NCBI RefSeq assembly: GCF_000178835.2
Contig: NC_015275.1
Location: forward strand, 4,245,001-4,309,000
Length of the DNA stretch: 64,000 nucleotides
DNA from: Cellulosilyticum lentocellum DSM 5427
GTDB lineage: Bacteria; Bacillota; Clostridia; Lachnospirales; Cellulosilyticaceae
Reading direction: 5' to 3'
Position 1 is the stretch's first letter, and each line of letters begins with the position of its first letter. Of the stretch, positions 29,110-55,281 are shown piece by piece. The position numbers and the translations under genes are program-made. The notes under the pieces are model-generated. The model worked only from the letters and a program-made list of their open reading frames with translations, was not told the origin of the DNA and ran no database searches.

Positions 29110-29121
29110 ATTTTAAAGGTC

Positions 29122-29465
29122 TTATTCCACTAACGGTAAAGCACATAGATTTTGCATTATCTCTTCAAATAGATGCTTGTATGGGTGGCTACTACAGAGT
29201 TTAAATGTTACTTTACGAGCGTGTCTAGCTACTTTGACAGCAACCTTAATAACTTTTTTGCGAATGGTTTCCATTTGAAAGCTCTGCACATCTTTTGCCA
29301 TACATAATCTTCTGAACCAATTGTTAAAGTTATAGGCAAGCATTGAAATCTGTAGCTTGTTTCTATTTGCTGCAAAGCTAGTGCTACTCATGCGGTCAAA
29401 TTCAAAACCATTTTGCCTTCTTTGATGAAGTTCTCCATCGTACCATGATTGTAATAAAATAAATT
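29122..29465 (-). pseudogene. IS1380-family transposase remnant
   Basis: Only the C-terminal ~105 codons of an IS1380-type transposase survive. The residues NGFEFDRMSSTSFAANRNK, QISMLAYNFNNWFRRL and RHARKVTFKLCSSHPYKHLF are the typical C-terminal end. Just upstream the frame is broken: NHGTMENFIKEGK lies in one frame and NGFEFDRM in another, with a shift near 29410-29425. Coding similarity stops near 29465. Full-length members are about 440 residues, so this is a dead fragment at the border of the NRPS cluster. Confidence 0.7.
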
Positions 29466-29671: not shown

Positions 29672-29834
29672 ACGCATTATTGTTGGTAGAACTGAGAGAG
29701 GGTGGCTACCTGTCGTGGTTCCGCTCCGTATTTTCAGTAGGCACTAAGCTATAACGCATACGTGCTGAGGAGCCGTCTTGCGCCTTGATTAGAGCCTATT
29801 TAGATAGTTGTAAAAGTTAATTTCCAGGGTCTGG
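29672..29834 (+). repeat. Dispersed repeat, modules shared with 14.6, 34.4 and 43.4 kb
   Basis: The 5' part (29690-29707, ACTGAGAGAGGGTGGCTA) matches 14649-14665. The following CCTGTCGTGGTTCCG and GCACTAAG resemble the loop of the 43.4-kb hairpin. The segment 29728-29834 aligns with 34427-34533 at roughly 70% identity by eye, sharing TGCTGAGGAGCC, TATTTAG and GTCTGG in register. No coding potential was found. Confidence 0.6.
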
Positions 29835-29843
29835 ACCAAAGAA

Positions 29844-29886
29844 ACACATCTTCAAGTATATACAGTACTTGAAGATGTGTTTTTTT
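29844..29886 (+). terminator. Perfect 15-bp terminator after the repeat
   Basis: ACACATCTTCAAGTA (29844-29858) pairs with 29866-29880, then TTTTTT. No gene reads into it from the left, so it may belong to the repeat element or to an unannotated transcript. Confidence 0.75.
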
Positions 29887-29920
29887 CGTTATCTAACTGC
29901 TATTAACATACTCTGTCGTT

Positions 29921-30067
29921 ACGCCTTCTTTCCAGGCTGCCTCAATGTCGTGGGTGTTTATGAGGTCAATAACGTTTGTGAAAATGAGGGGGAGGGCTAT
30001 TTGGAAGATAGCCTCCCCCTCATTTTCCTCCAGACGTGATTCTCATAAATGCCCCCGACAAATTTCT
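29921..30067. repeat. Long imperfect hairpin element, copy 1
   Basis: Arms 29946-30000 and 30008-30061 form an imperfect inverted repeat of about 54 bp with a 7-base loop. Both contain TTTATGAG and AAAATGAGGGGGAG. The right end and a flank beginning ACGCCTTCTTTCCA are also found, reverse-complemented, at 43558-43640. It lies just past the stop of the PPOX gene at 30070 and may also serve as its terminator. Confidence 0.75.
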
Positions 30068-30069
30068 AT

Positions 30070-30489
30070 TTATAATACTCCCCTTGCCTCTTTCCAATCA
30101 ACTAGGAGATTGTAACGTTGGGTGTTAAAACGTAACACACAATAATTGGGATCTTCAGGACCACTAAAATGATTAGTGAGGCCCTCATACCACATTTCCT
30201 TTTTTATATCTAAATCTGTCACGATTTCCATTGTCCCAACTAGTGTAATATTATAATCCTCGGCATTAAAACAAACACTAGCCCTATTACACTTATCAAT
30301 TCGATTAGTTCTTATACTGCCTAGTCCTGTGCAAAATGTAAGCCATTTGATACCATTTGCTTTAGAGGCTGTTATAGTAGAGGCCGTTGGATAGCCATCT
30401 AAATCCACTAGAGCTAATACACAATAAGAATTTTCACCTGTATTTTTCTGAACAATTTCACCTGCTCGTGCTATAATCTCTTCATGCAT
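30070..30489 (-). CDS. Pyridoxamine 5'-phosphate oxidase-fold protein
   Basis: 139-residue split-barrel flavin/heme-binding fold protein of the general-stress PPOX group. Features are VLALVDLDGYPTASTITASK, WLTFCTGLGSIRTNRIDKCNRASVCF and the C-terminal NTQRYNLLVDWKE. Substrate is unknown; such proteins commonly bind FMN or F420-like cofactors. It is 15 bases after a VOC-family gene and has AGGGGGAT upstream, so it belongs to a small operon with that gene and the DUF3795/PPOX pair. Confidence 0.82.
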   Translation of the reverse strand: MHEEIIARAGEIVQKNTGENSYCVLALVDLDGYPTASTITASKANGIKWLTFCTGLGSIRTNRIDKCNRASVCFNAEDYNITLVGTMEIVTDLDIKKEMWYEGLTNHFSGPEDPNYCVLRFNTQRYNLLVDWKEARGVL

Positions 30490-43294: not shown

Positions 43295-43344
43295 CATACT
43301 TTTGTTTTTTAATAAATTCTTTATAATCACCCGGCTATTACTAC

Positions 43345-43640
43345 AAATAAAAATTTGTCTTGGCGTTTATGAGAAATACGTCTGAGAGAAAATGAGTGAG
43401 TATGGGTGCCTTCCGTTGTTCCGGTTCACATTTTTTGAAGCACTAAGTTCACTTATTTAGATGAACGGCAGAACTCACTTCGTTCAAACAACTGCCTAAA
43501 ACCCATCTAAAACGTTCACTAAGTGCTTCTAAAAATGCTCCCAAGTCACTACTCCAGGCACCCATACCCACTCATTTTCACCAACGTTGTTGACCTCATA
43601 AACATCCAAGACAGTGAAGCAGCGTGGAAAGAAGGCGTTT
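43345..43640. repeat. Long imperfect hairpin element, copy 2
   Basis: Outer arms 43351-43410 and 43558-43612 pair over about 55 bp: TGTCTTGG, TTTATGAG, and the exact GGCACCCATACC/GGTATGGGTGCC-type core ending AAAATGAGTG. Inner arms GAAGCACTAAGT (43437) and ACTAAGTGCTTC (43518), then TTTAGATG/CATCTAAA and GGCAG/CTGCC, continue the fold. The right flank (43613-43640) is the complement of ACGCCTTCTTTCCA at 29921. No reading frame of note. Confidence 0.8.
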
Positions 43641-54988: not shown

Positions 54989-55281
54989 AAAAAGAGCCCT
55001 ATCGTCCATGGGACGATAGAACTCGTGGTGCCACCCAAATTATATCTTTGAAAGGTTACTCCCCTAGAAAGATATCACTTTAACAGATACGGCATTTATG
55101 ATGCGATATCCTGTTCCTATAACGTAGAACTTACGACTCTGACTACTCTTAGTTCACCAGGCATCTCCCAAACCCATTCCTTATAATCTCCTGTACTGGA
55201 CCTTTCACCAATCGCCAGCTCGCTGAGGCACTTAATTATAAGTACTCTTTTTGTTCCTAGAATTTAATTCCGATTTAATTA
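54989..55281 (-). promoter_or_regulatory. T-box riboswitch leader of trpB
   Basis: On the minus strand the leader has Stem I (AGCGAGCTGGCGATTGGTGAAAG..., GGAATGGGTTTGGGAGATG), the CGTTA block, the T-box sequence GGGTGGCACCACG (55036-55024) and a terminator (stem 54994-55007 with 55011-55024, then TTTTT). The specifier region reads GCC-TGG-TGAA-CTA-AGAGTAG. TGG would fit Trp, but the triplet right after GAA is CTA, so the cognate tRNA should be checked. Confidence 0.88.

Follow-up and report, generated by a model that had tools for sequence, protein, structure and literature searches.

In integron attC sites, the recognised form is a folded single strand with extrahelical bases. The ends of IS200/IS605 elements and the REP sequences are likewise recognised as folded single strands (PMC6006769); as described in PMC6006769 and PMC3733652, REP, BIME and REPIN sequences are intergenic and multicopy, form inverted dimers and fold into hairpins of 21-65 nt with a short conserved foot, GTAG or GTGG, on their 5' side. 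TIRtrons, which carry the motif GGGGWSAS, and TIRYT are presented in PMC3733652 as inverted repeats in dimers or clusters that flank Y1 genes. MITEs, including the hairpin-forming MITE of Thiomargarita as characterised in PMC4853749, are non-coding, with inverted ends, a large hairpin and many intergenic copies.

Here we describe a family of long hairpins in Cellulosilyticum lentocellum DSM 5427, seen in a window of 64,000 nt (positions 4,245,001 to 4,309,000 of NC_015275.1) and in the rest of its chromosome. The family resembles REPs and REPINs in its intergenic, multicopy occurrence, in its inverted dimers (head to head at 20 of 37 places) and in a folded strand whose hairpin has a short conserved foot on its 5' side, but its hairpins reach ~300 nt, the foot is TTAG and the loop is conserved as well. 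TTAG is present in 33 of 33 aligned tips, as the search pattern demanded, and GTAG is absent before the outer stem too. Like TIRtrons and TIRYT, the family has inverted repeats in dimers or clusters; unlike them, its hairpins do not flank Y1 genes and their sequence is different. It shares with MITEs the dispersal of non-coding DNA over 37 places, the large hairpin and the inversion of the A-ends at both outer ends of the pairs, and it departs from them in a covarying tip common to several phyla, with no clear target duplication and no parent IS come across. The likeness to attC would lie in a recognised folded strand; the family's long hairpin has its conserved bases at the tip and in the bulge.

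Results

According to the original prediction, a hairpin with arms at 29946-30000 and 30008-30061 of the window and a 7-base loop repeats, in inverted orientation, both ends of an element at 43.4 kb and lacks its interior of ~145 bases. Both arms were found in the sequence. By BLAST of the region, 29946-30060 matched its own complement at 76% over 121 columns, and the strand folded as DNA at -36.2 kcal/mol, compared with -12.3 ± 2.6 kcal/mol for 200 dinucleotide shuffles, none of which reached it (z = -9.1). This hairpin, the arms of which contain bulges, was missed by an ungapped repeat finder set to arms of at least 20 nt. Further, BLAST against the 43.4-kb copy in inverted orientation gave 89% identity over 72 nt for the B-end (E 2e-22) and 80% over 56 nt for the A-end (E 3e-8), values that rule out a similarity of short words at chance level. 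The inner arms of the 43.4-kb copy, which folds with z = -9.65, are separated by 144 nt, so that the claims on arms, ends and interior all proved correct. The two hairpins are copies of one non-coding repeat family. The limits of the 29.9-kb copy set by an HMM of the family are a little wider than those first noted, and its outer A-end abuts the stop codon of a minus-strand PNPOx-like gene (30070-30489). The features of the two copies are as follows.

29913..30077, plus strand: tip-deleted hairpin copy, B-end left and A-end right (HMM matches at chromosome positions 4274913-4275014 and 4275002-4275077; alignment to copies L046 and L047; fold)
29913..30014, plus strand: B-end arm of the 29.9-kb copy (HMM positions 3-105; 89% to the 43.4-kb copy over 72 nt)
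30002..30077, plus strand: A-end arm of the 29.9-kb copy (HMM positions 235-311; sequence; neighbouring ORF)
43338..43640, minus strand: intact long form, a single hairpin (HMM match 4288338-4288640; fold)
43472..43501, minus strand: conserved tip of the 43.4-kb copy, TTTTAG ... TGTTTGA ... GAGTT (whole-genome pattern search)

The long form (~300 nt) is the norm in the family. Alignment of the 29.9-kb copy (153 nt) with its siblings L046 and L047 (300-303 nt) showed ~147 nt to be missing, with a deletion joint, TGGAAG, that is included in the 7-base loop and that the siblings have once per arm. The missing interior is the hairpin tip, where conservation within the family is highest. Two further places, at 3736287-3736494 and 3329687-3329820 (HMM), also lack the tip and have other breakpoints. 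Based on the TGGAAG joint and on these losses at different breakpoints, the long form is ancestral and the short form at 29.9 kb a deletion, not a cargo-free element. The tip was deleted between the TGGAAG repeats of the two arms, which fits the expectation for replication slippage across a hairpin, and the copy is probably no longer mobile. Of the suggestion that this is a defined element with optional cargo, the first part is borne out by a dispersed element with reproducible ends; the cargo is not, since the supposed insert is the conserved tip.

The genome is a single contig of 4,714,237 bases with dnaA at position 43. Whole-genome BLAST returned at least 33 matches for the 153-nt short copy and at least 61 for a long copy. 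The HMM, of 317 positions and built from 29 copies, was run against ~1.26 Mb comprising 40 stretches around known copies, the window and 20 control stretches of 20 kb (1.0-2.92 Mb); 64 matches, which merged into 37 places, were obtained in the copy-bearing stretches and the window, and none in the controls. All 37 places are intergenic, with no ORF of 100 aa or more overlapping any of them, and their flanks differ; long B1-type copies at different sites are 94-98% identical. At 14 of the places, that at 29.9 kb included, the outer end lies within ~25 nt of a gene's 3' end (counted from the table of copies). All 32 whole-genome matches to a looser tip pattern fell outside 0.743-3.189 Mb, i.e. 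in the origin half; a fragment at 3.06 Mb makes the gap slightly smaller, and about half of the chromosome, away from dnaA, is copy-free, with a probability of ~2e-9 under uniform spread if the copies are independent.

Among 27 neighbour relations within places, 20 were minus-plus, none was plus-minus and 7 were same-strand, these last being end fragments or one hairpin split by deletion. Hairpins are therefore paired head to head, with A-ends outward, at 20 of the 37 places and tail to tail at none, and the sequence between the paired hairpins is the variable part. The 29.9-kb copy is the right half of such a pair, with a neighbour on the left, and between the two lies part of a longer repeated block.

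29681..29750, minus strand: decayed fragment of the left-hand partner hairpin, which faces the 29.9-kb copy head to head (HMM match 4274681-4274750, positions 201-269, E 7e-7)
29736..29889, plus strand: 3' part of a repeated ~510-nt non-coding block (~86-89% to L046/L047; inverted repeat)
Chromosome 416847-417357; 4020650-4021169; 364256-364760; 487342-487852; 3059834-3060268: copies of the ~510-nt block

The similarity of the block to L046/L047 spans a shared stretch of ~280 nt, continuing into the B-end, and the block ends with a terminator-like hairpin at 29835-29889. It occurs in the genome at no fewer than five places with 90-100% identity, has no long open frame, and combines a promoter-like start (TCGG..ACATATATATAAGTGTAA) with a strong terminator. 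The start motif is also found 5' of small genes in genomes of the same genus (L237-L239), which by eye are of the DUF1659/DUF2922 type and stand beside a sigma-factor gene, and part of the block is matched at 78% in another genus (G007, L236). Searches of the block gave no match in Rfam, none in plasmids, and two chance-level matches in phages. The block may be a non-coding RNA gene of a new kind. Niameybacter massiliensis has units of 760-960 nt in which the A-type ends are inverted and either end forms a hairpin; the left end was read by eye. As a separate observation, a frame-broken DDE_Tnp_1_4 (PF13701) transposase relic is present on the minus strand at ~29110-29425 of the window.

The tip consists, in order, of a TTTTAG bulge, an inner stem, TGTYTGA, a mini-hairpin and GAGTT. 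Covariation was assessed in 50 distinct tips, the kinship of which inflates the test: canonical pairs numbered 98 of 100 in the two positions of the mini-helix (permutation mean 62), 222 of 250 in the five inner pairs (mean 135) and 338 of 350 in the seven outer pairs (mean 249), and none of 2000 permutations matched the observed pairing. Yet the pairs span the GC, AT, CG and TA types, and the tip covaries very strongly. The stems diverge between genera with pairing kept. A G-T pair next to the bulge is invariant in all 50 tips, and the TTAG, TGT, TGA, GAGTT and CGTT columns are invariant in 33 aligned tips, for which the selecting pattern demanded most of these letters. Moreover, in each of 38 long copies the strand read from B to A gave the better fold, by a mean of 16.5 kcal/mol, although these copies are related and do not represent independent events. 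With the same reservation as to relatedness, transition mismatches between the arms were more often G-T than A-C (77 vs. 36, p = 1.4e-4), an excess that comes mostly from the C. lentocellum genome (53 to 20) and falls short of significance elsewhere (other groups: 10 to 5, 13 to 11 and 1 to 0). Contrary to this polarity, in a Fusobacterium hairpin with a tip match it was the complementary strand that folded slightly better.

A strict tip pattern was present in 6 of 24 Cellulosilyticaceae genomes (reversed control, 0) and in 2 of the 398 genomes of a phylum sample, C. lentocellum itself included. In named genomes, 26 stretches matched: 11 from Niameybacter, 2 from C. ruminicola, 5 from Clostridia bins and 8 others, from Helicobacteraceae, Spongiibacteraceae (two), Cytophagales, Nitrospirales, Aminicenantes and Bacteriovoracaceae bins and from Vibrio maerlii. 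In 7 of these 8 distant matches a predicted hairpin, judged by eye, has the motif at its tip or close to it; the Bacteriovoracaceae stretch (L147) has the pattern without a hairpin and was dropped as chance. Arms are shorter outside the family: once hairpins had been filtered by a long-arm score and near-duplicates removed, one was left from 17 non-family loci. A DNA pattern of the B-end had no match in the named genomes. Viral contigs gave no match to the strict pattern and 106 stretches with a shorter one; in 19 of 80 analysed, arm complementarity exceeded the maximum of random-position controls, and at least 8 of the 19 represent one locus in related contigs, which by eye are P2-like prophages. 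One prophage hairpin had no match among named phages, and a literature word search on the tip sequence found no related paper.

An exact empty site, as had been proposed for a check, was not found. Closest to one comes the genome G019: there the orthologous neighbouring gene (78% identity) stops at the equivalent position and is not followed by a hairpin of the family. When flanks of 12 head-to-head pairs were compared (five further pairs, in which the terminus was not recognised, were dropped), the longest shared word was 5 nt, and short matches were weakly in excess (p = 0.016 for the sum); there is no clear target-site duplication.

Rfam covariance models had no match to the hairpin family, only sub-threshold microRNA matches to terminator-like hairpins. 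The sole Rfam match in the window is a T-box leader at 55006-55267 on the minus strand (120 bits), unrelated to the hairpins. RAYT-size genes at L169, L158, L161, L168, L192 and L160 were without the tip, several having GGGGAC or other repeats. It may be added that GGGGAC(G)-type inverted repeats, similar to the TIRtron GGGGWSAS, surround RAYT-size Y1 genes at L161, L192, L158, L168 and L200 in Cellulosilyticaceae. A further locus, L182, was considered as an autonomous element and rejected, as it consists of broken IS genes clustered between two hairpins.

Discussion

We consider it probable that the 29.9-kb copy belongs to a non-autonomous mobile element with inverted terminal hairpins, now degraded, of which it forms the right half. 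The complete unit would be two hairpins of ~300 nt standing head to head, A-ends outermost, and flanking up to ~0.9 kb of non-coding DNA, sometimes with the ~510-nt block, while single hairpins would exist as well; a putative trans-acting enzyme would recognise the folded single strand at the tip and move the element. The model builds on many copies (64 HMM matches, spread over 37 places whose flanks differ, and near-identical long copies at different sites), intergenic sites without ORF overlap, a fixed pair orientation (20 of 37 head to head, none tail to tail, and the same arrangement in N. massiliensis), strand-polar folding in 38 of 38 long copies with a covarying tip, repeated tip deletions, including that with the TGGAAG joint, and the ortholog in G019 that ends at the same point without a family hairpin. 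From these observations we infer the step from folding to mobility. Against mobility count the failure to find a driving enzyme, a clear target-site duplication or an exact empty site, the Fusobacterium hairpin with its slightly better-folding complement, the copy-free half of the chromosome, for which simple transposition does not account, and the fact that strand-polar folding would suit an RNA too.

Indeed, the hairpins, with or without the block, could be transcribed as a structured RNA whose tip, with its bulge, tandem G-A and mini-hairpin, binds a protein, and which was spread by recombination or on other elements. Such an RNA would explain the better-folding B-to-A strand, the surplus of G-T over A-C mismatches, the G-T pair beside the bulge and the promoter-like start and terminator of the central block. 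We nevertheless find it unlikely, as paired hairpins are oppositely directed, leaving one antisense to any through transcript, as the terminator, where the block is present, stands just ahead of the right hairpin, as, in the viral contigs that were inspected, the motif strand sometimes runs against the flanking genes on either side, and as Rfam has no match. Still less probable, in our view, is an ordinary MITE of a DDE transposon, in which a DDE transposase would cut at the A-ends, these being terminal inverted repeats, and the hairpin would merely follow from the length of such repeats. The A-ends are outermost in 20 pairs, as this would require, and the DDE_Tnp_1_4 relic lies ~0.3-0.6 kb to the left of the partner at 29681-29750; however, the tip and not the termini is most conserved, the stems keep their pairing between genera while diverging, every single end is already a full hairpin, target duplication is not clear, and no DDE gene between A-ends came to notice.

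A REP-like repeat driven by a RAYT or other Y1 transposase would account for the folding of the strands, the inverted dimers and the location between genes, and RAYT-size Y1 genes do occur in C. lentocellum and in several hairpin-bearing relatives. Because the foot differs and linkage to a RAYT gene is lacking, we do not place the family within REP/RAYT, and family search, flank inspection and motif search did not support such a transposase as driver: the flanks of these genes bear GGGGAC-type repeats or nothing, the tip was met, among the Y1 loci searched, only at L182, V. maerlii and a Spongiibacteraceae bin have the tip with no Y1 match, and RAYT-size genes are also found in genomes without the strict tip. 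This origin is thus very improbable.

Returning to the mobile element with terminal hairpins, we tentatively raise a wider possibility, to which we give less credence than to mobility of the C. lentocellum family: that a class of mobile DNA across several bacterial phyla is defined by a folded-strand tip (TTTTTA bulge, inner stem, TGTTTGA, mini-hairpin with a GNA-type loop, GAGTT) and moved by a single-strand enzyme outside the RAYT/IS200 family, the Cellulosilyticaceae form being an inverted-terminal-hairpin element able to carry a non-coding RNA gene. If so, the tip, conserved from Clostridia to Vibrio, Cytophagales and prophage-like contigs, would be the recognition site of a new enzyme, and the tip hairpin a ready substrate with which to fish for it. 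Tip loss makes a mode of hairpin decay visible, and the comparison of copies has brought to light, between two hairpins, a dispersed non-coding block that has a terminator of its own. Finally, the copies at 729707 and 3189160 share the same flank past the A-end, and the genes next to them are both 397 aa long, a sign of a larger segmental duplication.
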